Assembly (NCBI GenBank): GCA_028277445.1
Contig: JANQGG010000004.1
Coordinates: forward strand, 1 to 64,000
Length of the DNA: 64,000 nt
DNA from: Chloroherpetonaceae bacterium
GTDB lineage: Bacteria; Bacteroidota; Chlorobiia; Chlorobiales; Chloroherpetonaceae
Reading direction: 5' to 3'
Shown here: in pieces, positions 163-29,996 of the stretch
Layout: each line of letters opens with the position of its first letter
Numbering within the stretch: position 1 is the stretch's first letter
Notes under the pieces: model-generated
What the model was told of the DNA's origin: nothing
The model's database searches: none
Seen by the model: the letters and a program-made list of their open reading frames with translations, nothing else
Program-made: the position numbers and the translations under genes

Positions 163-2553
163 ATGGCCAGACTATTTCTTTCCATTTTTCTGTGGCTGAT
201 GTGCTTCTCAGGCGCGTTACATGCCCAGAACATTTTCTATACAGATGCCGGTGATTGGGTGGTTAAAAGCGCAGACACAAACGGGATAAATTCAAATATC
301 CAAACCATTGTCTCAGCGCAACCCGATCTGGTACCCGGTAAAATTGCCGTTGATAACATCAATAATAAAATCTACTTCTCAGACTTTTATGGGGACAGGA
401 TTTTCAGGGTGAATACTTTTTCAAGTTTTGTTGAAGAACTCGTCACAGGCACAGATCACCCACGTGGAATCGCGCTTGATGTGGAGAACAACACCATGTA
501 TTGGGTGAGTAAAAATTCTCACCTGATGGAATCAGCCAACCTGGATGGCAATAATCGCTCTCAGATTCTGGATAATACGTCGCTCCAGCTTCCCGATAAC
601 CTGAGGATAGATTTGCAGAATCAAAAATTGTATTGGAATGGCACTACGCTGGATAGCAGCAAAGATGTAATCCAACGATGCGATCTGGATGGTCAGAATG
701 TTGAAACGGTTGTAATAGCCAACTCTGGCGATATCTGGGGTTTTGATATTGTGCCAAGTTCAAATGAGCTGTATTATTTTTGGGCCGATACCTCATCTCA
801 GGACTATGTTCGAATCGCTTCAACAACACTAATCAATCAGGATGCGTCTACAAATGCCATTTTTCATGATTTTGGCCTTTCCGACGCGTTGATTCAGGAT
901 ATTACAGTAGATACAACAACATCAAAAATCTTCTGGACGGATAGCCATAACAACCTGGTTGGATATAGAAATCTGGCACCTTTAAGCCTAGTTCAAACGC
1001 TGATTGATCAGGATGTGAATCACATCCAGGGGTTTGCGTTATCAAATGCCACATCAGAGCTGCCAACGATTATCATAACTGAGGTTATGCAAGATCCGAC
1101 TACTGTTTCAGACGCAAATGGTGAATGGTTTGAGATATACAATCCAACCGAGCACCAAATAGACTTGAGCGGCTGGAAAATCAAAGATAATGGTTCAGAC
1201 CTGCATGTGATTGATCCGGGTTCAAATCTATCTATTCCAGCATATGGATTTTTAGTTCTCGGAATAAATGCCGATACAACCGCAAACGGCAATGTTGAAC
1301 TCGATTATCAATATTCAAATTTTTTACTAACCAATTCAAATGATGAAATCATACTTACCCTTGATGATGATTCAGTTATAGATAGTGTAGCATATGGTGG
1401 TGGATGGCCTCTGGCTGGTGGCGCATCAATGGTATTGAATGATTTACGCCTTGATAACAACGACCCCGCGAATTGGAGTAACTCCCTGCTGCAATGGACT
1501 CCGGGCAATCCGGACAAGGGTTCGCCAGGGTATTTTGATAGTGGAAACCCTCCTAATCCTCCAGCCGGCGGTACACAAGAATATGGCTTTGGGTTGCTGG
1601 ATGGGACCAATCCATTTTTTGCCTTAACCGATATTGGATTTGGGAACACCATAATAACTGATTTTAGCATCTTTATAGGCGAAAAGAATCCAAATCTAGG
1701 AGTGAACGACAAAGCGATTGGAAGTTATCTTGTCATCCATGGGACTCCTGATGGGGCAACGCTTACCATGTATTACACCGATGCTCTATTTGAGGCCTCT
1801 GGGCTCAGCTCCGAAGAAGAACTCCAATTAGCTGCCTGGGATGGCTTTACTTGGTTTAAATATCCCAGAGGGCCCGGCTCAAATGTAACAACGAATATTG
1901 TTACAGCCGAAGGCGTATTTTCATTCTCTGAATGGGTGATTGTAGGCAGTGACAGCGATTCGCCTCTTCCAGTAGAACTTACTTCATTTTCAGGCACGTT
2001 GGTTGAAAATGGTGTTAGGCTTAGTTGGAGAACATTATCTGAAACGGATAACGCCGGGTTTATTCTTTACCGAAATGGCGAAGTGATTGCCAGTTATGAG
2101 ACATCCGATGAATTAAAAGGCCAAGGTACAAAGTCAACGGCGACAAACTATCAATATGTAGATCAATCTGTTGAACTAGGAACTATGGTGTATAGCATTG
2201 AAAGTCAGGATTTATCCGGGCTAGTTCACAAATATAATCCTGTTGTCGAGCTTAAGGTTTCAGAGTTGCAAAATCCGAATCCGAAAGACATTGATTATAA
2301 TCTATCACAGAACTATCCCAATCCGTTTAATCCTTCTACCAATATTACTTACACCATGAAAGAAGCTGGTTTTGCAACCATTAAGGTGTATGACTTGTTA
2401 GGACGGATAGTTTTCAAAACAAACATTTCTTCCGGACAGGGTGTAAATACATTTTTATTTAATGCTTCAAAATACACAAGTGGCATGTATTTTTATCAAA
2501 TGTCAGCCAAAAACTACACCAGTCCTATGAAACGGATGGTTTTGATCAAGTAA
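163..2553 (+). CDS. secreted beta-propeller / lamin-tail-domain protein with T9SS C-terminal sorting signal
   Basis: The 796-residue protein begins with a Sec signal peptide (about residues 1-21, ending Ala-Leu-His-Ala). Residues about 22-295 carry repeated YWTD-like motifs typical of LDL-receptor-type beta-propellers. Residues about 300-430 resemble a lamin-tail domain (ITEVMQDP, GEWFEIYNP and LSGWKIKDNG motifs). The last 80 residues, from about 717, form a type A Por secretion tail starting NYPNPFNPST and ending in a basic Lys-Arg-Met segment. Such proteins are exported by Sec, then moved over the outer membrane by the type IX system and often anchored at the cell surface. A ligand is not evident; adhesion or binding of extracellular polymer is a guess. 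A good hairpin terminator follows the stop codon. Confidence 0.85.
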   Translation: MARLFLSIFLWLMCFSGALHAQNIFYTDAGDWVVKSADTNGINSNIQTIVSAQPDLVPGKIAVDNINNKIYFSDFYGDRIFRVNTFSSFVEELVTGTDHPRGIALDVENNTMYWVSKNSHLMESANLDGNNRSQILDNTSLQLPDNLRIDLQNQKLYWNGTTLDSSKDVIQRCDLDGQNVETVVIANSGDIWGFDIVPSSNELYYFWADTSSQDYVRIASTTLINQDASTNAIFHDFGLSDALIQDITVDTTTSKIFWTDSHNNLVGYRNLAPLSLVQTLIDQDVNHIQGFALSNATSELPTIIITEVMQDPTTVSDANGEWFEIYNPTEHQIDLSGWKIKDNGSDLHVIDPGSNLSIPAYGFLVLGINADTTANGNVELDYQYSNFLLTNSNDEIILTLDDDSVIDSVAYGGGWPLAGGASMVLNDLRLDNNDPANWSNSLLQWTPGNPDKGSPGYFDSGNPPNPPAGGTQEYGFGLLDGTNPFFALTDIGFGNTIITDFSIFIGEKNPNLGVNDKAIGSYLVIHGTPDGATLTMYYTDALFEASGLSSEEELQLAAWDGFTWFKYPRGPGSNVTTNIVTAEGVFSFSEWVIVGSDSDSPLPVELTSFSGTLVENGVRLSWRTLSETDNAGFILYRNGEVIASYETSDELKGQGTKSTATNYQYVDQSVELGTMVYSIESQDLSGLVHKYNPVVELKVSELQNPNPKDIDYNLSQNYPNPFNPSTNITYTMKEAGFATIKVYDLLGRIVFKTNISSGQGVNTFLFNASKYTSGMYFYQMSAKNYTSPMKRMVLIK

Positions 2554-2564
2554 TTGAGAAATAC

Positions 2565-2589
2565 ACAAGCCGGCGTTGTGCCGGCTTTT
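2565..2589 (+). terminator. intrinsic terminator after the T9SS protein gene
   Basis: A perfect 7-bp GC-rich stem (AGCCGGC, 2568-2574, with GCCGGCT, 2580-2586) and a 5-base loop are followed by a short T run, 12 bases after the stop codon. Confidence 0.8.
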
Positions 2590-2868
2590 CCTAATTAGTT
2601 AAAATATTTCCAATGCTTTGAGCTTCGAGATGCAGATATCAGAAAGATTATCAACCACATGAATACCAGCAAATGAATGCATAGATTTTTAAATGGCGGC
2701 AAATCCTTGTGGGATGAAATCTATGCTTTTTTCAGCGAATTTAAGATAACTATATATGGCAGGATGAACCGTTCCAAATAACTATATTACATTGCAATTG
2801 CTTAACCATGCCATACAAGCTCACTTTTTTGGCGTGATCTTTTTTAACCTTATTAAACATTTCCTTTC
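2590..2868. other. intergenic region with a long-stem hairpin
   Basis: No coding potential is seen. The notable element is a perfect 10-bp stem (GCATAGATTT at 2679-2688 with AAATCTATGC at 2717-2726), with a 28-base loop, followed at once by six T residues (2727-2732). It could terminate a short transcript on the plus strand or be the 3' end of a small RNA. The loop can form a second small hairpin (ATCC with GGAT). Confidence 0.45.
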
Positions 2869-3264
2869 ATGAAACTCGAAGTTTTTTTTGAAGACAATTT
2901 GAAAATTAACGCTAAAGTTGGTGATCATCTTATTCAAACCGATCAACCGATTCATAGCGGTGGCGACAACTCTGCTCCTGCGCCTTTTGAACTTTTTCTT
3001 TCGTCAATTGGAACATGCGCAGGAATTTTCATCAAGCATTTTTGTGCCAGCCGCGATTTGGATACCTCCGGCATTAAGCTAACTCAAAACCACAACTTTA
3101 ATCCCTTAACCGGCATGATTGAAAGCATTGATATTAATGTTCAACTCCCGGAAGACTTCCCCGAAAAATACCACGGTGCAATCAAAAAGGTTGTTGATCA
3201 ATGTGCTGTAAAACGCCATTTAATGCAACCACCGCAAATTAATGTTCATACCCTCAAAGCCTGA
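2869..3264 (+). CDS. OsmC/Ohr family protein
   Basis: A 131-residue protein of usual OsmC family length, with the two conserved cysteines at residues 50 (IGTCAG) and 112 (DQCAVKRHL). In characterised members this pair reduces organic or inorganic hydroperoxides in the cytoplasm. The N-terminal strand region, the segment with SAPAPFELFLSSIGTC and the C-terminal helix with the second cysteine all fit the YhfA-like subgroup better than Ohr itself. The gene stands alone between two non-coding stretches, with no clear ribosome binding site. The physiological substrate is not known from sequence; detoxification of peroxides is inferred from family membership. Confidence 0.85.
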   Translation: MKLEVFFEDNLKINAKVGDHLIQTDQPIHSGGDNSAPAPFELFLSSIGTCAGIFIKHFCASRDLDTSGIKLTQNHNFNPLTGMIESIDINVQLPEDFPEKYHGAIKKVVDQCAVKRHLMQPPQINVHTLKA

Positions 3265-3988
3265 GCCACTTCATTGTGGTTTTAGGGTTCATACATTGCA
3301 GATTGCGCTGGAATCGGGGTGTATGGAAAAAGAGTTCTGCCAGACGAGTTTCCAATGATAACATTATTGTTCCCTGAGCGCTTATTGAGAGATATGCTGA
3401 GAGATTGCTGAGCTTGCAGAAATACAGCCGAAGCATTACCGAAAAATCGCCGAACAGAACATTTAAAATTGGTCATTGAGCGGAGCCGAAATGCCGATTT
3501 TGCAGTTTGTACTACCCATTCGTTAGTTTTTCAGCCAGCTCCAACACACGATTTTATCCTATCATTTCCTATTTGTATTTGGCTTGTCCATATAATTAAC
3601 TCCTAATAACGGATTTAAAAATTAAGAACACGCATTCTTAAGTGTCATTGGAAAGCTAAAATATTTGGGTATAAACAAACAGAAAATGACACTCATTTTC
3701 TAGTCATGCTGAACTTGTTTTCAGCATCTCAACCAAATTGGCATTTTCTGAGACCCTGAAATTAATTCAGGGTGACCAATAACGTAAATCCGTCATTGGA
3801 AGCATTGAAACAAACATCGTGTGGGATTTCGGATGGTTTTTAGTTTGTCTTCTGTGTCTTTAAGAAACAATCCAGCTTTTTCATTCCGCTCTATCTTTTA
3901 TAAGACAAAAAGGGGGAAAATGGTTAAAATTATTTTGAGATTCAGGATATAGACTAAAATGAAACCCGGTTTAATTCACAGCAATCTT
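3265..3988. other. 724-bp non-coding gap with dispersed-repeat-like sequence
   Basis: No reading frame here looks protein-like on either strand. The stretch holds an inverted-repeat element at 3703-3776 (listed separately) and, at 3471-3493, a GTCATTGAGCGGAGCCGAAATG-like segment that resembles a repeat seen between genes in many bacterial genomes. Other short pieces at 3370-3460 (runs of GCTGAG and CCGAA) look like decayed copies of the same kind. Convergent genes are not involved: the left neighbour ends into it and so does the right one, from the minus strand. Confidence 0.5.
3703..3776. repeat. REP-like inverted repeat element
   Basis: Two imperfect palindromic arms face each other across about 20 bases. 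The left arm (3703-3730) starts GTCATGCTGAAC and ends TTCAGCATCTC; the right arm (about 3749-3776) starts GAGACCCTGAA and ends TTCAGGGTGAC. Each arm can fold alone (GCTGAA with TTCAGC; CCTGAA with TTCAGG), and the left arm is also roughly the reverse complement of the right. This two-hairpin design is typical of mobile intergenic repeats of the REPIN type. Only one copy is present in the window. Confidence 0.55.
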
Positions 3989-12315: not shown

Positions 12316-13002
12316 TCAGGCTTTTAAGCGATAACCCACGCCTTTGATGGTTTCAATATTTTGATCGCCAAATTCATCAAGTCTTTGACGAACTTTACAA
12401 ATATGAACATCAACAGTTCTGTCGGTCACGTAGATGTTTTCACCCCATACCCGTCGTAGTAGCATTTCTCTGGAAAAAACTTTGCCAACATTTGTGCTTA
12501 ATATCCAAAGAAGCTCAAATTCTTTTCGGGGAAGAAAAATTTCTTTCTCTCCAAGTTTTACGGTATGTGTGCTTCTATCGATTTCCAAATCTTTAACCTT
12601 GAGTTTAGTGACTTCCTCTGAAGTATTAATATTGTAGCGTTTTAAAACATTTTTAATTCTTGCAGAAAGAAGCTTAGGGCTTGTAGACTTCGTTAAGAAA
12701 TCATCAGCGCCTAACTCTAAACCAAGCACTTCCTCCGATTCATCATTTTTATTGGAAAGCATAATGATCGGAAGCGATTTGCCTTCAGGTATAGATCGAA
12801 GCTGTCTGAACAAATCAAATCCTTGAGAATCATCTTGTTTGAGATCAAGCAAAATCACTTCAGGCTTTTTTGAAAGCTGAGCAATGGTTTCAGCTTTATC
12901 TTTAGCCCAAACAATGGAATACCCTTCTTGTTCAAGTCGTTTTCGAATCCAGGAAACATATTGAGGCTCATTGTCAGCAATAAGAATGGTTCTCGGGTTC
13001 AT
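12316..13002 (-). CDS. OmpR/PhoB-family response regulator
   Basis: A 228-residue two-domain regulator. The receiver (about 1-120) has the acidic pair Asp10/Glu12, phosphoacceptor Asp53 (VILLDLKQDD) and Lys105, though followed by Ser rather than the usual Pro. The winged-helix DNA-binding domain (about 130-228) shows LPRKEFELLWILSTNVGKVF, the recognition helix region TDRTVDVHICKVRQRL and the terminal IKGVGYRLKA. It acts as a DNA-binding transcription factor in the cytoplasm. No kinase is adjacent, so it is an orphan; the equally orphan kinase at 56,755 is one possible partner in the window, without further evidence. Confidence 0.92.
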   Translation of the reverse strand: MNPRTILIADNEPQYVSWIRKRLEQEGYSIVWAKDKAETIAQLSKKPEVILLDLKQDDSQGFDLFRQLRSIPEGKSLPIIMLSNKNDESEEVLGLELGADDFLTKSTSPKLLSARIKNVLKRYNINTSEEVTKLKVKDLEIDRSTHTVKLGEKEIFLPRKEFELLWILSTNVGKVFSREMLLRRVWGENIYVTDRTVDVHICKVRQRLDEFGDQNIETIKGVGYRLKA

Positions 13003-17355: not shown

Positions 17356-18024
17356 ATGATTAATGAACAATTATATCAAAACTATTTTAAAGCTCTGCTT
17401 GATGGCAATCGTGAAGCTTGTTTTGAAACCGTTCAATCCCTTCTTGAACAAAAAATTAATATCAAATCACTATATACCCACCTCTTTCAGCGATCAATGG
17501 TGGATGTTGGTTTGTTATGGGAACGGAGTAAAATATCGGTGGCAAAGGAGCATTTGGCAACTTGTATGACCCAAAACCTGATGCAATTGGTGTATCCGAT
17601 ATTATTTACCGATGAACATCTTGAAAAGAAGGCTATCGTTACGAGCGCTTTTAATGAGTATCACCAAATAGGCGCCCAAATGGTTGCCGATATTTTTGAA
17701 ATCAATGGTTGGCATAGCTACTATTTAGGGGCAAACACACCAATAAATGATCTCAACAAATTGGTTCAAGAACTAAAACCCGATGTTATTGGAATTTCGG
17801 TCAGCATTTCGTTTAATTTACCAAATGTTGTATCGAGTATTGAAGAGCTAAGAAAGCATTTTCCGAAAACGCATATGATAGTTGGCGGTCAAGCGTTTTT
17901 GTGGGGTAAGAACTATCGGTACAAATTAGAGCAATACCCATTAGTAGATTGCATTTTAACATTAGATGAGTTGGAAACGTATCTATTAAATTTTGATAAG
18001 CCGACCATTAATGAAACCGGTTGA
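17356..18024 (+). CDS. stand-alone cobalamin-binding protein with CarH-like W-x9-EH motif
   Basis: A 222-residue cytoplasmic protein made of a four-helix B12-binding-2 domain (about 1-85) and a Rossmann-type B12-binding domain (about 90-210). In the first, Trp55 is followed after exactly nine residues by Glu65-His66, the W-x9-EH signature of CarH/CarA adenosylcobalamin photoreceptors. In the second, His103 lies in EYHQIG, a slight variant of the base-off DxHxxG motif that supplies the lower axial ligand; the later GG at 177-178 fits the fold. Unlike CarH there is no MerR DNA-binding domain. It overlaps the following kinase gene by 14 bases, so a sensory role feeding that kinase is likely: cobalamin level, or light through adenosylcobalamin photolysis. 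Methyltransferase-associated corrinoid protein is the alternative. Confidence 0.85.
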   Translation: MINEQLYQNYFKALLDGNREACFETVQSLLEQKINIKSLYTHLFQRSMVDVGLLWERSKISVAKEHLATCMTQNLMQLVYPILFTDEHLEKKAIVTSAFNEYHQIGAQMVADIFEINGWHSYYLGANTPINDLNKLVQELKPDVIGISVSISFNLPNVVSSIEELRKHFPKTHMIVGGQAFLWGKNYRYKLEQYPLVDCILTLDELETYLLNFDKPTINETG

Positions 18025-19129
18025 TATTCAACAATGGGTGGATCAATATGTACGCTCAGTAGCCCCTATTTTTTTTATCAAAATTGATGCCGATCATATT
18101 ATACAAGATACCAACGAATTTACCAGTAAACTTGTAGGAAAGCCTCTAATAGGAGTACATTATAAAGAGATAATTTTAGATTTCTCGGGAACTATAAATT
18201 TCAAACAACTATCTGAAAATCCGTTAAAAACACATATCATAAATGTTGTAACATTTTCAGGCTTGCCCCAAACTTTACTTTCAACTTTTACTGCGTTAAA
18301 TGATGGCTATGTGGTTTTAGGACACGTTGATGTAGAGGAAATGGAGAGCCTGCAAAAAAAGGTTTTAGAGCTAAATAACAATCTTGGAAAACTCAACAGG
18401 GAATTACATAAAAAGAATGTTGAACTCAAAAAATTAAATCGACTGAAAAATCAATTTTTAAGCTATGCCACCCACGATTTACGTAAACCCGTAAGCGTAA
18501 TTTTAACATATGCCGAGTTTTTGGAAGAAGATGCCGATGATGTATTAAGCCTGGAGCATAAAGCATTCTTAAAAAAAATTAAGGCTTCAGGTATTTTTAT
18601 GAAAAACCTCATCAACGACTTTTTGGATATTTCAATGATTGAATCGGGGATGTTTAAACTTGATCGGCAGAAGTTAAAATTAAAATCGCTTTTAGACTCG
18701 GCATTTTGGCGGCTTGAATTAAAGGCCAAAAAAAAAGACATTAACATCAACATTACTCACGATGAAAAGCTGCCGGAAATGTATTTGGACGCTTCCAAAT
18801 GTGAGCAAGTATTTTTAAATATTATCGGTAACGCCATTGAGCATTCGTATCCCGAGTCTTGCATTAATGTAAAAACAATAAAATCGGGAAATGAAGTTAC
18901 GGTTTTGGTGCGCGATTTCGGCGTTGGTATGTCGGCGCAACAACAGAAAAACCTTTTTAATCCTAATAAGCGCATTAGAACCACTAAAACCGGCGGTGAA
19001 AAAAGTACAGGCATGGGGCTTTTAATATCAAAAAAAATTATTGAAGCCCATGGGGGTAGAATTGAATTAAGTTCAAACTCAGGAAAAGGTACATGTTTTA
19101 AGCTTGTGTTACCAATAACCCAAAAATAA
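18011..19129 (+). CDS. soluble sensor histidine kinase coupled to the B12-binding protein
   Basis: A 372-residue kinase without membrane segments. Residues about 15-115 look like a PAS-type sensory fold (IFFIKIDADHIIQDTNEF and GYVVLGHVDV). A coiled coil of Leu/Asn/Lys repeats (about 118-147) leads to the HisKA domain with His155 in YATHDLRKPVS. The ATPase domain follows, with the N box NIIGNAIEHS, G1 box RDFGVGMS and G2 box TGMGLLISKKIIEAHGG. The start ATG at 18011 lies inside the end of the B12-binding gene, indicating translational coupling. No dedicated response regulator of conventional type follows; the receivers of the two large hybrid kinases downstream are the nearest candidates. Confidence 0.88.
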   Translation: MKPVDIQQWVDQYVRSVAPIFFIKIDADHIIQDTNEFTSKLVGKPLIGVHYKEIILDFSGTINFKQLSENPLKTHIINVVTFSGLPQTLLSTFTALNDGYVVLGHVDVEEMESLQKKVLELNNNLGKLNRELHKKNVELKKLNRLKNQFLSYATHDLRKPVSVILTYAEFLEEDADDVLSLEHKAFLKKIKASGIFMKNLINDFLDISMIESGMFKLDRQKLKLKSLLDSAFWRLELKAKKKDININITHDEKLPEMYLDASKCEQVFLNIIGNAIEHSYPESCINVKTIKSGNEVTVLVRDFGVGMSAQQQKNLFNPNKRIRTTKTGGEKSTGMGLLISKKIIEAHGGRIELSSNSGKGTCFKLVLPITQK

Positions 19130-19136
19130 ACACCCT

Positions 19137-19610
19137 ATGACTCAGCATGAAATACTCTTGAAGTCGGCGCAGGCCTTAAAAAGACCTTCAGCTGAAGCAA
19201 CCGGCGAATTTGAGGGAAAAAACCAGCAAATTGCCGAACTCATGATCCAGAGGATGCATAAGCGCCCAAATATTGAACAATTTATTGGCAAAAGCAACAT
19301 GCAGCTTATGGAAACCAACAGCCGGAATTTTTGCCGGTTTATGAGCACATTGTTTTCTGAGTACGATCCTCAAATGTTTGTTAATACCTGTTTATGGGCA
19401 TTTCGCACTTACCGCTCGCATGGCTTTCATGTCACATACTGGGCGGTTAATCTGGATACCACGCTCACATTACTTCAAGAGGAATGCTCCGAAAAAACTT
19501 ACAAGGAACTAAGTCCGTTCTTTGACTGGATATTAATCAACATTCCTAGGCTTACGGTAATAACCGATGAGCAGCTTTCCGAAGACAAACCTGATGATGA
19601 ACATGTTTAA
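19137..19610 (+). CDS. small helical protein of unknown function in the B12/kinase cluster
   Basis: A 157-residue soluble protein, probably all-helical, that I do not recognise. It has a variable first 35 residues, then a dense core with conserved-looking aromatic, His and Cys positions (RNFCRFMSTLF, FRTYRSHGFHVTYW and SPFFDWILINIPRL), and an acidic tail. It begins 7 bases after the kinase stop and ends 32 bases before the giant hybrid kinase, so it belongs to the same unit. By position it may be a sensory or adaptor protein passing a signal between the B12 receptor/kinase pair and the hybrid kinases. A cofactor-binding helical bundle of globin or photoreceptor type is possible but unsupported. 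Confidence 0.65.
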   Translation: MTQHEILLKSAQALKRPSAEATGEFEGKNQQIAELMIQRMHKRPNIEQFIGKSNMQLMETNSRNFCRFMSTLFSEYDPQMFVNTCLWAFRTYRSHGFHVTYWAVNLDTTLTLLQEECSEKTYKELSPFFDWILINIPRLTVITDEQLSEDKPDDEHV

Positions 19611-19642: not shown

Positions 19643-22600
19643 ATGGAAGAGAAACTAACCATATTAGTTGCAGATGATGATGGCGATTTGCTGGAAGCAA
19701 CAGCCGGGATAATCAGAAAAACTGGCCATAATATCATAACGGCTGTTGATGGCGAAGATGCGCTTGAAAAGCTCCAACAAAATCACCCCGATCTGATACT
19801 TACGGATATTGAAATGCCAAAAATTGATGGTTTGCAGTTGTGTAAAACCATAAAAAATGATCCGGCATTTCAGCATATTCTTGTTGTGTTGATTACGGCA
19901 TCAAAAGTCAGGTTAGAGCAGCAAATGCAAGCATTAGAAACAGTTGCGGATGGTTATTTGGTTCGGCCAATTTCCAACAAGTCGTTATTAGCATGGGTGA
20001 AATCGTTTTGCCGCATTGCTCATTCCGAAAAAGCCTTATTGCAAGCTAACCGGCGAATTCAGCATCTTAATTACATCCTCAATTCTATTCGAAAAATCAA
20101 CCGGTTGATAACCCAAGAGCTTCAACCCAAGGAGTTGATGGAAAAAGCCTCTGAATTGCTTACTCAATCAATGGGCTATTATAACGTTTGTATTGTATTG
20201 AGTGATTCCAATGGTCGTTTCGAATCAGTTGCAAAAGCCGGAGATTTTAGCGGCAAGTTTCAGGAAATCCAACGTGCATTAGAAAATAACCAAAGGCTTG
20301 AATGCTTTGAATTGGCATGCAAATCCAAAACGTTTTGCGTTATTGAGCATCCCAAACAAACCTGTACAATTTCCTCACTTATTAATAATCCTGAGAGCCA
20401 CTGCATGTTTTGCGCAGAACTTAAATATGAGTCATCCACTTATGGTTTTATTATAGTTTCCGTGCCAAAAGAATATGCCCATGAAAATGATGAACAAGAC
20501 CTTTTTGAAGAACTGGTTCGGGATTTGAGTTTTGCATTGCATCGTAATGAAATTAACACCAAGAAATTACAGATCGAACGCCAAAATGCGTTGTATGCAA
20601 AAATTGTTGAAACAACGACAAATATCTTGGCGGTTTTAGACCGGGATTATCGGTATGTAGTTGTCAACAATGGTTATAAAAAGCATATTGGCCTTTCAGG
20701 AAAGGAGCTAGAGGGAAAACGTGTTGTTGATATTTTAGGAGAGGATGATTTCAAAACTACGGCTAAAAAGAACATGGATAAAGCCTTTCGAGGTAAGCAT
20801 GTTCACTACACCGCCAAAATCATGAACAAGGATGGCAAATGGGTTTATCACGATGTTCACATCTCGCCATATAAGGATCCTGATGGTAAAATCAATCATT
20901 TAATTTTAAGCGCCGTTGATCTGACAGAAGTTCATCAGCATCAACAGGAACTAAAACAAAGTCAAGACCGATACCAATGGTTGTTTGATGCTTCCCCGGT
21001 TCCATTATGGGAAGAAGATTTTAGCCAGCTCATCAAACATCTGGAAAGTATTAAAGAAAATGGCATTACGGATTTAAGGGCATATTTCCGGGATCATCCA
21101 GATGAAGTGGCAAATTGCATTGAAAAGATTAAAATCCTGGATGTCAATCATGCAACACTCGAGTTTCATGAAGCGACAAATAAAGAAGACCTCCTCAATT
21201 ATTTAGAAAAAGTTTTCACCCCAAAATCTCAGGAAGCTTTTGTAGAAGAATTAGTCACAATATTTGAAGGCAAAGATGTTTTTACAATAGAAGCTGAAAT
21301 TAAAACGATTTCAGGAAAGCTTAAACAGATATTTTTAAAGTTAAGGCTTGAAAAAAGGCAACCTGATGATTACAAGGCAGTGGTTTCGACAATGGATATT
21401 ACAGAACGAAAGCGCGCTGAAAACATTCTCCAGGAAAGTGAGCAAAAGTTTCGAAAGATGTTTGAAAATACATCGGTTGGCGTAGCAATTGTGGGATTGG
21501 ATTACCAAATCCAACAAGCCAATTCAGCATTTTGTAACATGCTTGGTTACAGTGAAAAAGAGCTCAAAACGAAAACTATCAAAGATATTACTTACCCGGA
21601 AGATTGGCCCAAAAATCAAAACATGCAAAAGAAACTGGGGCAACAAGTTGTTCCAAAATATGAGCTGGAAAAGCGCTTTGTGCGCAAAGATGGTAAACTG
21701 GTTTGGGGATTATTGAACGCAAATTTAGTTGAGGACTCTGTTGGTGAGCCGTTATTCTTTTTAGGTAATGTGGTTAATATTTCTGAGCGAAAAGCAATGG
21801 AAGATGCGTTATTAAACAGTGAGGAAAAGTTTCGTTCGCTGTTTAATCTTACCACAGATGCGCTTTTTATTGTGGATTTTACCGGTAAGATCATTGAAGC
21901 AAACAAAACCGCTTCGGACTTATTAGGTTACCCTTATACAGAATTAGTTACATATTCATTATCGGAATTCCAACCTGAAGATGCCATTAAAGACTTTGAC
22001 CGCATTTCTAAAACTCAATTAAATCATGGACTTGCATTGTTTGAAACTTACTTTCGAACCAAGGATGGACGGCATATTCTTGTAGAAGTTAGTTCAAAGT
22101 TAATTGATTTTATGCATAAAAAAGTGGTGCTGGCGCAAGTCCATGATATAACCCAGCGTAAAGAAGCTGAATTAGAGCTTCAAAAAAGCAGGGAGCGTTA
22201 TATGAATTTATTTACAGATAGCGCGTCCGTGATGCTTTTAATTGATCCTAAAACCGGCAAAATTATCGATGTAAATCATGAGGCCGAAGCCTATTATGGG
22301 TATGAAAAAGAAGCATTGCTTTCAATGAATATTAATGATATCAATGTTTTAACCCCGGAAGACGATATGAAAAACATTGAGCTGGCTGCTTCAAAAAAAC
22401 GTCATCATTATTTTGTTACACAAAAATTATCCTCCGGCAAGCAACGAGAAGTTGAAGTGTTTAGCGGTCAGGTTGAGATTGAAGATCAAACGTTATTGTA
22501 TGCGATTATTCATGATATCACTGAACGGATAGCGGCCGAGCATGCAGTAGAAAAGCGCCTGGCCTATGAAAGTTTGTTGGCAAACATATCAAAATTGGCT

Positions 22601-25600
22601 ATTGAAGAATCTGATGAGAAGGTATTTATAAACAACAGCTTTCGGCTAATCGGAGATGTGTTTTCAGTATGCCGGGTTTATATCTTCGAGTATAATTCAA
22701 CCAAAGAAAATCAAAGCAATACATATGAGTGGGTAACTAAGGGCTGTGCATCTCAAATTGATCATTTACAGGATTTACCGGTCAATGTAACACCCTGGAG
22801 GCAGGAAATGATGTTAAAAAAGAGGGTGATTAATGTTGAGAACATCGAAAAAATCCCTTCAGAGACTGAGAAAGAGTTACTGCAACAACAGGAAATTAAA
22901 TCGTTGCTTGTTGTGCCAATGTATGTCAGCGGCGCTTATTATGGTTTCCTTGGGCTAGATGAATGCCGGGTTAACAAACATTGGCCCAAGGAAGATGTTG
23001 AGATTTTAACATCCATTGCTTCAATTTTTTCAACATATATAGGGCATAGAAAAGCTGATCAGGCGTTGAAATTAAGCCAGGAGCATTACCAAAGATTGTT
23101 TGAGCTGCCCCAGGATTTTGTATTCCTGCATGAATTTCAACAAAACGACGAGACGGGATATTTTATTGAAGTCAATCAATGGGCATGTGAACGGCTCAAG
23201 TATTCTCTGGATGAGCTCAGACATATGAGGCCTACTGATCTTATTAATAAAAAGGACAAAGACCTCTTACGCGAGGAATCAGAGACTTTATCTGCCAGTG
23301 GAGAATTAAAAATTGTTAAAAACCTTTTAACCAAAGACGGAGATGCAATACCTGTTGAACTGCATGCTAGGGTATTTGAGCATGAAGGAAAAAAACTGGT
23401 GATTTCAATTGGACGAGATATTTCGGAGCGGTTGCGAACGGAAAAAGAGATTAGGGAAAGTGAAGATCGATTTAGAGGCATATTTAACAATATGGCTAAT
23501 GGCGTCATTATTTATGAGGCGATCAACCAGGGAGATGACTTTGTGGTCAAAGAGATAAATCGTGCTGGAATGGGATTAACAAAACATCACTCCGAAGTCG
23601 AAGTTGGAAAACGGTTATCGACCCTAAAAGCCGGATCAAAGCATATGGGCATGATGGAGATGCTTAAAAAAGTGCTTGATACTGGTAAAGCCGAATATTT
23701 ACCGACTCGTGAAATTACCACACAAAAACGAGAGATTTGGCTTGAAAATTACATCTTCCGAATCACTAATGGAGAAGTGATTGTGGTGTTTGAGGATGTT
23801 TCCGAACGAAAACATTATACGGAAGCATTGCGGAAAAGCGCTGAGAAATATCGTTTGCTGGCCAATAATGCAACCGACATTATTTGGCAAATGGATTTGA
23901 AAATGCGGTTTACTTATGTAAGCCCATCCGTGTTTAATATTACCGGATTTACAGTATCAGAATGGATGACGATGAATTTAAGCGATCATAAGACGATGAA
24001 CAATATGATTTTACTAGAGCGTAATATTCTCAATTCGCTTAAAAATAAAAATCATATGGATGTTATATCGTTTGAATCTCAAATCCTTAAAAAAGACGGT
24101 TCAACGATTGATGTTGAAATATCCGCAAAAGTTATCCGTAACGAAAAAGGCAAATCGATTGGCATACAAGGTTCAATACGTGATATAACGGAGCGAAAAC
24201 AAGCCGAACGAGAACTGATTGAAAGCCAGCAAAGTCTTCAAAGCATTTTCAAAGCTTCGCCGATTGGTATTGGGTTAGTTGTCGGAAGAAAGTTTTACCG
24301 GGTCAATGATACGTTTTGCCAGATGGTTGGATATAGCCAAAGCGAGCTCCTTGAAAAAAATACTCGTATGATTTATCCATCCCAAGATGAGTACGACAGA
24401 ATTGGCAAAGATCATTATATACAGATCGCTAAAGAAGGCCTTGCATTTACAATAACTCAGTATAAACGGAAAGATGGTAAAATTATAGACATTCATTTAC
24501 GCTCTACTAAAATGGAGATGTATAAAGATCAAATCGGGATAATTTTTACGGCTATCGATGTCACGGAACAGCTTAAGGCAAGCAAGGCGTTGCAGGAAAG
24601 TGAAGCTAAGTTCAGAATGGTGATAAATGCCATCAAAGATGTCTTCTGGATACAAAAACCTGATTTTACTGAAATTATTTTTTGCAGTCCGGCCTATGAA
24701 GAAGTTTTTGGGCGGCCTTTATCCGAGTTAATGGCGTTTCCAACGACCCGGTTAGACTATATGAATGAAGATGATCGAACATTGTTTAATGAAGCATTCG
24801 CCAATAGCCTTAAGACGAAAGAGTCATATACATTGGAATACAGAATTGTCATGCCAGATGGCGCTATTAAATGGATTTTAGAACGCGGCTTTCCAATTAT
24901 TGACGCTAATAATGATATTGAGTTTGTTGCCGGTAGCAGCACCGATATTTCCGAAATGAAATCTTTGATAAATGAGCGTTTCAAATTACAGGATCAATTA
25001 AGGCAAAGCCAGAAAATGGAAGCCATTGGTCAGTTGGCAGGAGGCGTAGCTCACGATTTTAATAACATTTTGCAGGCTACAATGGGCTATTCACAATTAT
25101 TGAAGGATAGCTTAGAAAATAGTACTACTGAGTACGAATTCGTTGAGGAAATATACAACGGAACTGAAAGAGCGGCAGGTTTAACCAGGCAACTCTTGGC
25201 ATTTAGTCGCCGCCAGGTTATTGAACTGGTAGATCTGGATTTAAACCAATTGATAGAAAACCTCACGAAAATGATGCGTCGGTTGATCGGGGCAACCATT
25301 GAGTTAAAAATGGAGTTGAAGCCCAAATTGGCAACCATTAGTGGCGATGTGGGTCAGATCGAACAAATTTTAATGAACCTCTCGGTAAACGCCCGGGATG
25401 CCATGCCTGAGGGTGGGCAATTGCAGATTATCACTCAGGAAATCACCATTGACGATGATTTTTGTAAAGCCAATCATTGGGCGCAAAAAGGTAACTATGT
25501 TCATTTGAGCGTCTCCGATAACGGCTGTGGCATTGAGCCTGAAATCCAAGAAAAGATATTTGAGCCATTTTTTACGACAAAACCGCTTGGAGAAGGCACC

Positions 25601-26140
25601 GGATTGGGTCTTTCTACGGTTTATGGAATCATAAAACAACTCAACGGTTTTATTTTTGTCGATAGTAAGCCGGGTGAAGGCAGCACGTTTAATATCTATT
25701 TCCCAACCATAAAAGCGCCAAAAAAACCGGTGAAGCCCCAAACTGAGATTCATCCAAAAAGAGGCAGTGAAACCATTTTAATTGCCGAGGATGATGAAGC
25801 TTTACGAAAATTAGTCTGTAAAATTCTTTCGGACTATGGTTACAGGGTTTTGGATACCTCGGATGGAGAAGAAGCCATAAACGTTGGCAAAGAAAGTATT
25901 CAGGATATTCAGTTGGCATTGCTTGATATTGTGATGCCTAAAAAAAATGGAAAAACTGTAATGAAAGAGTTGCGAAAACTAAATCCGGATTTACCGGTAT
26001 TGTTGATTAGTGGATACAGTCCCGGCGGCATTCATACCAATTTTATTTTGGAACAAGGTGTTGATTATATTCAAAAACCATTTAATATCAATAAAATGCT
26101 CTCTAAGATTCGTGATCTGTTAGATAAAAAAGAAAATTAA
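19643..26140 (+). CDS. giant hybrid sensor histidine kinase (REC-GAF-PASx5-GAF-PASx5-HisKA-HATPase-REC)
   Basis: A 2165-residue soluble protein. Order: receiver (about 5-125, Asp55; Arg108 replaces the usual Lys), cysteine-rich GAF (about 160-310; Cys 221, 226, 232, 241, 254, 257), five PAS units (about 315-970), a second GAF (about 970-1145), five more PAS units (about 1145-1785), the kinase core with His1804 ([11 protein letters not shown]), an HATPase domain with DNGCGIEPE and [12 protein letters not shown], and a C-terminal receiver from about 2042 with a normal Lys-Pro. PAS units are joined by the DITERK-type linkers expected for signalling helices. No transmembrane segment is present, so it senses cytoplasmic signals. 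It is translated shortly after the helical protein gene and is probably co-transcribed with the B12-binding unit. The domain count is by eye; borders are approximate. Confidence 0.93.
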
Positions 26141-26366: not shown

Positions 26367-29300
26367 ATGGATGATTTTATTAGTGGCACAAACTTGTCGG
26401 AAAACGTAGCTGTACTAGTTGTAGATGACGATGAAGAACTTCGCAAAATTACCATTGGTCTACTGCCAACAAAGAACCTAACTATTCTTGAAGCAGCAGA
26501 TGGTAAAACCGCGTTGGATTTGATACATGTTCACCACCCTGATATAGTAATATCAGATGTGATTATGCCAGAAACCGAAGGACTTGATCTGTGTTTATTG
26601 GTTAAATCGGATCCAAAAATCAAACATACCTTTTTTGTACTGATCACCGGTTATAAAATTACCCCAGAAGATAGAATACAAGGTTTAGATTCAAAAGCCG
26701 ATTCATACATAACCCGACCAATTTCGAATCGTGAATTAAAAGCTAAACTTGATTCCTTTTTAAGAATTGTTGCTGCCGAAAAACAAGTTCGTGAATCGAA
26801 TGCGCATTTAGAATATCTAAAAGCGATTATAGAAGCGATTCAAAAAGTTAATCGTTTGATTGCCAAAACCTCAGATGTTCAGGAGTTGATCGATAAAACA
26901 TGTCAGTCCCTGATTAGTGAGATGGGGTATAACAACACCTGGATTGCATTGTGCAATGAAAATAAAGAGATCACACATGTTGCCAGCGCCGGATTTGATC
27001 GATTGAACGTATCATTGGAAGAAGTATTAACCAAAGAAGGATGTTTGGCATGCATGGAAAAAACCAGACTAAATAATAAGCTTGTTGTAATACAAGATCC
27101 GGCAATAGAGTGTAAGAACTGTCCCTTATCACAGTATTATAAAAACTATTGTGGATTGTGTGCACTTATTGAATACAAGGATCGCATTTATGGGTGGCTA
27201 ACCATATCGGCGATAAAAAAATATGCCAACGATGAAACCCAATGGCAGTTGCTCAATGAACTAGCGTCGGATTTAGGATTTGCGTTGCAAAACCTCGAGT
27301 TAAAATCCATTCATCAGAAAACACAAATAAATCTGGACAATTTTGCCAAAATGGCAGCTCAAACGCGGGATTTTATTGCGATTATAAACAAAGATTACAC
27401 ACTTCAATTAGCCAACCCCGCCACATGTGAATTGTTTGAAACCCAACAATCATTAATCGTTGGTATGCATTTACAAGATGTCATTGGTGATGAACTTTTT
27501 AAGAAATTTAGCGATGAGCATCTTCAAAAAGCTTTTGCCGGGGAAATGGTGGAGTTTGTCTCTGATATAACCACAAACCAAGGCCCGACACGACATTATC
27601 AGATAAAGTTAACCCCAGATAATGAAAATGAACCCATCGAACACGTTTTTGTTTTAGGGACAGAGGTTACGGAAATCATAAAAACTCAAAAAAAACTTGA
27701 GCAAAGCGAGCAAAAATACAAACATCTTTACCAAAGTATTCCCAGTGGTATTGCTATTGTAAGCATTGCTGAAGGTAAAATTCAGGAAGCCAATGATATT
27801 CTATGCCATATGCTTGGGTATAGTCCTAAAGAATTCATTGGCAAAAGCATTCAAGAAATAACACACCCTGAAGATCAACATATTGATGAAGAGGCCATAG
27901 AAGAACGGTTGCATGGTCATCATGGTTTGCACATGATGAACAAGCGTATGTTAAAAAAAGATGGGGCAATTATCTGGGTTTCTATTACAACTTCAGTTAT
28001 TGACTTTGAAGAAGGTGAACCTAAACATGTATTAGGTGTGATTCTTGATAACACTGAACTCTTCAATACAGCGCTTGCGCTTAAAGACTCTGAAAAACGA
28101 TACCGTACGGTGGCTGAAAATTTCCCAAACGGAACGTTGAGCCTATTTGATAAAGATTTCACGTATGAATTTGTGGATGGCAAAGGTTTAGCGCTCGTGG
28201 GCTTAAAGAAGGAAGATTTAATTGGCAAATCCATCTATCAGCTTTTTCCTGAAGATATGGTTAAAACCAAAGAGAAGGCGTGGAAAGAAGTTTTTGAGGG
28301 GAAGTCGTCTGAATATGAATTTAGCTATAAAGGCCATGTATTTATTAATAGAGCGGTACCAATTAAGGATCCCAACACTGAAATTGCGCATGGCGCGGCA
28401 TTTTCTCAGGATATTACTGAAATAAGAAAGTACGAGCAGGAGCAACGAAAAAATCAGACCCTACTTGAGCTATCGGAAGAGATGTCCTTAACCGGAAGTT
28501 TTGAAATCGATTATAAAACGAATGTTCTCACGGTTTCAAAGGGCTGGCAGGAAATCGTCGGGATACGCAAAGCAACCCTTGATGTGAATCTTGATCTTTG
28601 GAAGTATGTTTATGAAGAAGACAAATCAAGAATTTTTAAGGTCTATGAAGAACACCTTATCAAAAAATCTGATTATCGAATTGAGCATCGGATCAACAAT
28701 CAGGAAACCGGTGATACACGACTGGTTAAAATTGTAATGAAAACACATTTTGATGAATTAAGCAATCCAATATCGAGTATTGGCACGATTCAGGATATTA
28801 CCGAACAACGAAAGTTCGAAGAAGAGAAAAAACAAGTAGAGGCTGAGCTGCAGCAAAGTCAAAAAATGGATGCTATTGGTCATCTGGCAGGCGGTGTTGC
28901 GCATGATTTTAACAATATCATACAATCGGTGTTGGGTTATTCGCAACTGCTTTTGGAAAATCTCCCGAATGATTCCGAAGAATATAATCAGGTTCTTGAG
29001 ATTTTTAAAGGCTCTGAGCGGGCGGCATCCTTAACCAGACAATTGCTTGCATTTGGGCGTCGGCAAATCATAGAACCTCAGGCCATTGATCTCAATCTGC
29101 ACATTTCATCCATAATGGATATACTAAAGCGGACAACAAAAGAAGATATTCAGTTGGAATTTGAACCCATGCCAAATTTGCTGAAGATAAACTTCGATAA
29201 ACATCAACTGACACAGGTAATTTTAAATTTAGTGTTGAATGCTAAAGATGCCATGCCTGAAGGCGGAGAGATTATGATCGCTACAACCCAAGACAGTGTT

Positions 29301-29996
29301 GATGAGGATTATATTGATTTGCATTTTCATGGGGTAGAAAAGCCAGACAAAGGTTTTTATGTTATGATGCACATTTCTGATAATGGCCAAGGAATGAATG
29401 ATGAAACACTTAGGCATATCTTTGAGCCTTTTTTTTCCACAAAACCTTTAGGCAAAGGTGTCGGATTAGGGCTTTCAAGCGTTTATGGAATTGTCAGGCA
29501 ACATAAAGGCGCAATATCGGTTCATAGCGGCTTAGGTAAAGGCTCATCGTTCGATATTTATTTTCCGGCATTGCCTTTAGAAACAAAACATGGTGAAGAA
29601 AATGAAACGCAGCAACTAGAACCGGTGAAAGGATCGGGAACAATTTTATTTGCTGAGGACAATGAGGTTTTAAGAAAGCTTACAAAAAAAGTTGTAGGGG
29701 ATTATGGCTACAACCTCTTGATAGCAAAAGATGGCCAGGAGGCCATAGAACTAGGAACGAAAAACATCCATAGAATTGATATCATCATATTGGATGCGGT
29801 TATGCCTAAAAAAAACGGGGTTGAAGTTTACCAAGTGTTGCATGAATTGCGTCCCGATTTGCCCGTTATTTTTACAAGTGGATACACTGAAAGCGAAATC
29901 CATAACAATTTTATTTTAAAACATGGATTGACGTATTTCCAAAAGCCGTATTCGCTTTCAGTGCTTTTAGCAAAAATTAAAGAACTCACCGATTAA
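26367..29996 (+). CDS. hybrid sensor histidine kinase (REC-GAF-PASx4-HisKA-HATPase-REC)
   Basis: A 1209-residue relative of the preceding giant kinase with the same ends. The N-terminal receiver (about 14-135) has Asp64 and Arg117 in place of the invariant Lys. The GAF domain (about 165-310) has three CxxC pairs: 226/229, 249/252 and 262/265. Four PAS units follow (about 320-820), then HisKA with His846 ([11 protein letters not shown]), HATPase with DNGQGMND and GVGLGLSSVYGI, and a C-terminal receiver with a normal Lys-Pro. It is soluble. A 226-bp gap separates it from its neighbour, so it may have its own promoter. The pair looks like an old tandem duplication with later loss or gain of PAS units. 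Confidence 0.93.
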   Translation: MDDFISGTNLSENVAVLVVDDDEELRKITIGLLPTKNLTILEAADGKTALDLIHVHHPDIVISDVIMPETEGLDLCLLVKSDPKIKHTFFVLITGYKITPEDRIQGLDSKADSYITRPISNRELKAKLDSFLRIVAAEKQVRESNAHLEYLKAIIEAIQKVNRLIAKTSDVQELIDKTCQSLISEMGYNNTWIALCNENKEITHVASAGFDRLNVSLEEVLTKEGCLACMEKTRLNNKLVVIQDPAIECKNCPLSQYYKNYCGLCALIEYKDRIYGWLTISAIKKYANDETQWQLLNELASDLGFALQNLELKSIHQKTQINLDNFAKMAAQTRDFIAIINKDYTLQLANPATCELFETQQSLIVGMHLQDVIGDELFKKFSDEHLQKAFAGEMVEFVSDITTNQGPTRHYQIKLTPDNENEPIEHVFVLGTEVTEIIKTQKKLEQSEQKYKHLYQSIPSGIAIVSIAEGKIQEANDILCHMLGYSPKEFIGKSIQEITHPEDQHIDEEAIEERLHGHHGLHMMNKRMLKKDGAIIWVSITTSVIDFEEGEPKHVLGVILDNTELFNTALALKDSEKRYRTVAENFPNGTLSLFDKDFTYEFVDGKGLALVGLKKEDLIGKSIYQLFPEDMVKTKEKAWKEVFEGKSSEYEFSYKGHVFINRAVPIKDPNTEIAHGAAFSQDITEIRKYEQEQRKNQTLLELSEEMSLTGSFEIDYKTNVLTVSKGWQEIVGIRKATLDVNLDLWKYVYEEDKSRIFKVYEEHLIKKSDYRIEHRINNQETGDTRLVKIVMKTHFDELSNPISSIGTIQDITEQRKFEEEKKQVEAELQQSQKMDAIGHLAGGVAHDFNNIIQSVLGYSQLLLENLPNDSEEYNQVLEIFKGSERAASLTRQLLAFGRRQIIEPQAIDLNLHISSIMDILKRTTKEDIQLEFEPMPNLLKINFDKHQLTQVILNLVLNAKDAMPEGGEIMIATTQDSVDEDYIDLHFHGVEKPDKGFYVMMHISDNGQGMNDETLRHIFEPFFSTKPLGKGVGLGLSSVYGIVRQHKGAISVHSGLGKGSSFDIYFPALPLETKHGEENETQQLEPVKGSGTILFAEDNEVLRKLTKKVVGDYGYNLLIAKDGQEAIELGTKNIHRIDIIILDAVMPKKNGVEVYQVLHELRPDLPVIFTSGYTESEIHNNFILKHGLTYFQKPYSLSVLLAKIKELTD

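Follow-up and report, generated by a model that had tools for sequence, protein, structure and literature searches.

Three adjoining genes in the window, the 64,000-nucleotide stretch of Chloroherpetonaceae DNA analysed here, appear to specify an unfused version of the recently discovered photoreceptors known as photocobilins, which would act in trans to control a soluble histidine kinase; to this split photocobilin reading we assign a probability of about 0.7. A B12-type light-sensor protein and a separately encoded globin would probably control the kinase jointly, and the reading draws on motifs, folds, a conserved gene neighborhood, and the equivalence of fused and split forms of the system, all of which are observed computationally. 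It gives a function-linked identity to a gene family that has no name and no Pfam or NCBIfam model and that occurs in at least eight phyla, and it describes what is apparently a B12-based light-sensing two-component system whose sensor acts in trans. The features, all on the forward strand, are as follows:

17356..18024, +, B12-binding photoreceptor-type protein, 222 aa, with a four-helix B12-binding_2 domain and a Rossmann B12-binding domain
17518..17553, +, Wx9EH adenosyl-caging motif (W55 at 17518-17520, E65-H66 at 17548-17553)
17656..17673, +, lower axial ligand motif E101-x-H103-x-x-G106, invariant in the alignment
18011..19129, +, soluble histidine kinase, 372 aa, ATG at 18011
18473-18475, +, predicted kinase phospho-acceptor H155, conserved in the 49-row alignment
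19137..19610, +, free-standing photoglobin-like globin ('P3'), 157 aa, predicted phycobiliprotein fold
19317..19319, +, globin Asn61, in the place of Asp270, which binds biliverdin in SasPcob
19395..19397, +, globin Trp87, at the position of Trp296 of SasPcob
19643..26140, +, REC-headed hybrid kinase, 2165 aa, probable phosphorelay partner (domains from Pfam)

The initial annotation had reported that the B12 and kinase reading frames overlap by 14 bases, that 7 bases separate the kinase and the third gene, and that the B12 protein carries W55, E65-H66 after exactly nine intervening residues, and H103; all of these are seen in the sequence. Its statement that the B12 protein lacks a DNA-binding (MerR) domain is borne out by Pfam, which gives B12-binding_2 (PF02607, E 7.8e-13) and B12-binding (PF02310, E 3.9e-17) and nothing else. 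Because such a domain is absent and the operon with a soluble kinase is conserved, output by protein contact, as was also proposed there, is likely.

The B12 protein closely resembles known light sensors. Its AF2 model, predicted for the protein alone (pLDDT 95.1), finds its best PDB matches in 8JBS, 8J2X/8J2W and 5C8D, and light-sensing B12 domains make up all 50 of the Foldseek matches listed. The photocobilin SasPcob is closer in fold (TM 0.82-0.84) than CarH (about 0.75), and the sequence comparisons agree: the photocobilins 8J2W/8J2X are nearest by phmmer against the PDB (E 1e-14), they reach E 2e-32 in a PDB profile search versus 1.5e-12 for CarH 5C8A, and they rank ahead of both CtMerR (8JBS) and TtCarH among solved structures. 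CarH as the nearest relative is thus ruled out, and of the earlier description of the protein as CarH-type it is the adenosyl-caging B12 core that stands, the closest known proteins being photocobilins.

Alignment with SasPcob (residue numbers from PMC10979010, equal to the chain index plus 6) sets W55 and E65-H66 against Trp61 and Glu71-His72, and H103 against the axial His108. The Wx9EH motif is present in 61 of 61 B12 proteins from loci with relatives of the third gene and is invariant, together with the rest of a set comprising G52, W55, E65, H66, E101, H103, G106, S148, G177 and G178, in a 35-row alignment; from these alignments we conclude that it is no chance occurrence. A placement of W55 and E65-H66 around the adenosyl group is predicted from the alignment and the fold match. 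The residue that follows W55 is Glu56, and at this position the 61 relatives have Glu or rarely Gln and never His. Since E56 thus stands in place of the His that forms the bis-His state in CarH, the light-state chemistry of CarH is not transferable to this protein. This substitution counts against a split photocobilin, though the site varies (Arg, Gln, Tyr) among proven light-responsive CBDs (PMC11796333).

The third gene had been described as encoding a helical protein of unknown family. It is indeed helical, and phmmer and profile searches of the 157-aa protein against the PDB, Pfam and NCBIfam gave zero matches; what has changed is that its fold is now identified, and that it appears not as an unrelated partner but as the missing globin half of a photocobilin, as indicated by fold, fusion and gene swap. 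Its identity came from the AF2 model only (47 rows, pLDDT 95.1, pTM 0.88), for which Foldseek against the PDB places allophycocyanins and phycobilisome subunits at the top, followed by other globins, with probabilities up to 1.00 and TM of about 0.6. The accompanying E-values of 0.04-0.2 are weak and count against the main reading. Comparison of the split globin with the globin domain of fused relatives by hhalign likewise yields no more than a weak similarity (P 7e-5 and 1.3e-3, probabilities 63% and 18%), and the globin assignment therefore rests on the combination of fold, register and gene exchange. Going by the modelled fold, the 157-aa protein is a free-standing photoglobin. The register is given by alignment: the fused relatives have Asp49 and Trp75 where SasPcob has Asp270 and Trp296, and the 26 residues from Asn61 to the invariant Trp87 in the window globin are identical in spacing to Asp49-Trp75, so that Asn61 and Trp87 correspond to Asp270 and Trp296. 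Both are found in 47 of 47 split globins by column counts.

The distribution of the genes and their fusions link the globin to the B12 protein. When 85,000 species genomes were scanned, relatives of the globin gene turned up at 70 loci, in Bacteroidota, Thermodesulfobacteriota, Planctomycetota, Lentisphaerota and Myxococcota, with further hosts in Spirochaetota, Fibrobacterota, Balneolota, Ignavibacteriota, Riflebacteria and others; the three-gene system spans at least eight bacterial phyla, mostly in anaerobic lineages. A conserved neighborhood of B12-binding protein, kinase and helical protein, for which the initial annotation had proposed a genome survey, is evident: a B12 gene adjoins the globin gene in nearly all 70 loci and the kinase is usually adjacent, in the order B12-kinase-globin (n=14, window included) or B12-globin-kinase (n=41). 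Genomes of the same phylum also encode fused B12 proteins of about 355 aa that carry an extra N-terminal domain, and the kinase encoded next after them scores 145-185 bits against that of the window. Searched as a profile, this added domain hits allophycocyanin at E 6e-7 and the globin of SasPcob at E 3e-5, and a full-length profile of the fused relatives covers both SasPcob domains. Nested within the fused clade (support 100/96) are the B12 proteins of L109 (Prolixibacteraceae) and L150 (Marinilabiliales), which have no globin domain; a separate globin gene lies 3' of the kinase instead. Conversely, single-chain globin-B12-histidine kinases, with a globin-type N-terminus, a B12 domain and a kinase in one polypeptide, are encoded by two Myxococcota MAGs (L161:1459-3702; L162:about 1345-3339), and the kinase part of L162 resembles that of the window (1e-44) and shares its coiled-coil linker. 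The fused relatives, the globin swap in L109 and L150, and the L161 and L162 fusions together argue for a split photocobilin two-component system.

Three globin genes lie without a recognised B12 gene nearby, in Desulfonatronum (L133:1695-2183), Desulfovibrionales (L141:8001-8471) and Desulfosarcinaceae (L124:7986-8456). In L133 and L141 a gene of identical type, unrelated in appearance, is found directly 5' of the globin gene.

The kinase has the domain content of a soluble enzyme, as had been stated, with Pfam recognising only HisKA (E 8e-15) and HATPase_c (E 9e-23). The H, N, G1 and G2 boxes are all present (H155, N270, D302xGxG and G334xG in the 49-row alignment). An N-terminal domain of about 110 aa lies outside the Pfam matches and is followed by a conserved coiled-coil linker; the PAS region ascribed to the kinase earlier was not recognised in the window protein, with sub-threshold PAS matches in two relatives only. 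The 2165-aa hybrid kinase gene starts 32 bases after the globin gene, and its product has the order REC, PAS/GAF repeats, HisKA, HATPase, REC. Because several loci of B12-kinase-globin order (L084, L085, L086, L087, L095, L100 and L114) also have a REC-headed gene 3' of the globin gene, the receiver domain heading the 2165-aa protein may be the phosphate acceptor. We note that PAS repeats are numerous in this protein, that its receiver precedes a Cys-bearing GAF-like region, and that a second REC-headed hybrid kinase (26367-29996) is encoded next after it. A conserved downstream GAF module was considered and rejected, being present in 2 of 65 loci, with a REC-headed downstream gene commoner. 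Elsewhere in the window, an OmpR-type response regulator (12316-13002, reverse strand) has no obvious cognate kinase adjoining, and is a possible target of the kinase.

The host genome encodes a Fenna-Matthews-Olson (FMO) protein (E 6e-214), which identifies it as that of a green sulfur bacterium, and hence a phototroph. Two homologues of cob(I)alamin adenosyltransferase are encoded as well, and so, separately, is a canonical CarH of the MerR type (G000:C27:49865-50899; L157) with 62% identity to the CarH of its family relative. Both the adenosyltransferases and the phototrophy of the host favor a split photocobilin, and against it stands that many of the hosts are sediment anaerobes, for which light may be scarce. 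Among 98 genomes of its class, which has one order, only the window genome has the globin gene, and the nearest relatives of the window globin are in other phyla, with 50% identity to one from a PVC-group MAG; the operon was therefore probably acquired laterally.

In the mechanism that we propose, AdoCbl in the dark would be held base-off between the Rossmann domain, with H103 beneath, and the helical bundle; W55 and E65-H66 would enclose the adenosyl group at the interface of a dimer. The separate globin would use its invariant Trp87 to bind at the edge of the corrin, in the manner of the fused globin of SasPcob. Under green light the Co-C bond would break and the adenosyl group would be expelled, and its loss would rearrange the adenosyl-lined dimer interface and disturb the globin contact. 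The B12-globin complex would then alter its grip on the kinase N-terminal domain and coiled-coil linker, producing a change in kinase activity, and phosphate would most likely pass to the receiver domain at the head of the next gene. Action in trans has a precedent in photocobilins, whose sensor domains, when isolated, influence a partner enzyme (PMC10979010). If AdoCbl binding, the light response and complex formation are as predicted, a compact green-light kinase switch made from three small soluble proteins is conceivable.

SasPcob senses two colors. That the window globin does likewise, holding biliverdin or another linear tetrapyrrole and thereby extending sensing to red light, is quite unlikely. 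The phycobiliprotein fold would suit such a role, as would the pocket Trp and a retained [HR]-G-F motif, which matches R-G-V of SasPcob and corresponds, in an inferred register, to RGMC of BBAG-2 (PMC10151467). However, Asp270 holds biliverdin in SasPcob, where Trp296 touches both biliverdin ring D and the corrin ring, and AbPcob, with His at the Asp270 site, binds biliverdin poorly (PMC10979010); the split globins have Asn in all 47 rows at this site, and none of the 47 has Cys at position 98, where the BBAG-2 Cys would fall. Heme oxygenase (PF01126) was not found in the window genome, and is present in only 2 of the 47 other genomes of split type and in 1 of 20 additional relatives; control genomes matched as expected in this survey, which covered PF01126. 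The invariant Asn at the bilin Asp site and the near absence of heme oxygenase suggest that the window-type globin probably keeps the corrin contact and works without a bilin, conceivably with some other ligand. More tentatively, and at somewhat below even odds in our judgment, there may be a bilin-free branch of photoglobins, in which a detachable globin senses an AdoCbl photoreceptor at its corrin face and signals to a kinase in hosts without biliverdin synthesis. If so, globin and B12 protein can cooperate with no bilin bound, and their partnership may even be older than bilin binding. The role of a phycobiliprotein-type globin lacking the bilin Asp, in hosts where heme oxygenase was not found, becomes a testable question.

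A more serious alternative, although still an unlikely one, is that the complex is a sensor of cobalamin status, reporting whether AdoCbl is bound (apo versus holo), with any photochemistry being incidental. AdoCbl-dependent assembly alone could switch a kinase, a good many of the hosts, to judge from their record titles, are sediment-type anaerobes, and one B12 protein of a separate, standalone clade (L060) is encoded just downstream of an apparent cob(I)alamin adenosyltransferase, as read by eye. Nonetheless, CBDs with a proven response to light (PMC11796333) have this adenosyl-caging motif and this entire fold, and the window host is phototrophic and also encodes the canonical CarH. It is far less probable, and in our view barely credible, that the B12 protein serves a methyltransferase system as its corrinoid carrier, the kinase being adjacent by chance or sensing methyl donors. 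The protein does resemble MtbC, MtgC and MetH domains in sequence, but its NCBIfam scores are far under the cut-offs, photoreceptors outrank carriers in both sequence and fold searches, Wx9EH is invariant, the constant partners are a kinase and a globin, and no methyltransferase gene was recognised beside the B12 gene in the window.

The split photocobilin reading places the window system among several known ones. Both domain types of the photocobilins (SasPcob, 8J2W/8J2X; AbDPcob, 8J2Y), the B12 domain and the photoglobin, appear here, with identical adenosyl-caging and axial-ligand residues and with the corrin-contacting Trp kept in the globin. The window system would thus work as a photocobilin does, but a definition that requires a single chain leaves it outside that class. 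The window domains differ in being two polypeptides and not one, in having a histidine kinase as a partner in trans, and in the change of the bilin Asp to Asn in hosts almost devoid of heme oxygenase. BBAG-2 is similar in that its globin gene is associated with a gene for a B12-binding protein, but heme oxygenase is encoded in BBAG-2 genomes, and biliverdin is bound by that globin through a Cys motif (PNAS 2023, PMC10151467), whereas the window type is without the Cys and nearly without heme oxygenase, and has a kinase as a regular partner. CarH/LitR (TtCarH, 5C8D) and CtMerR (8JBS) share the B12 domain fold, Wx9EH and the His axial ligand, but the window protein has neither the MerR domain nor the bis-His residue after the Trp, and its partners are different, with output predicted to be by protein contact. 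The L161 and L162 proteins have the same three modules and kinase linker, differing in that all modules are in one polypeptide and a separate globin is absent. Against the literature compared, the new elements are the split form with a regular kinase partner, Asn at the bilin Asp site, hosts that almost all lack heme oxygenase, and a broad distribution.

Associations of photoglobins with B12 domains and signalling domains were reportedly proposed by Schneider et al. in 2022, a study cited in PMC10979010.

The standalone Wx9EH B12 proteins, of about 215 aa, form a separate clade of 25 rows (support 100/98; L044-L055, L057, L058, L060-L062, L064-L067 and L069-L072), with neither a globin nor a kinase gene adjoining. 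Their neighbors, as judged by eye, resemble a PAP2-type phosphatase and an alpha-amylase, an Mla-like ABC transporter set or, at L060, the adenosyltransferase noted above, and the clade is possibly another B12 photoreceptor family with different partners.
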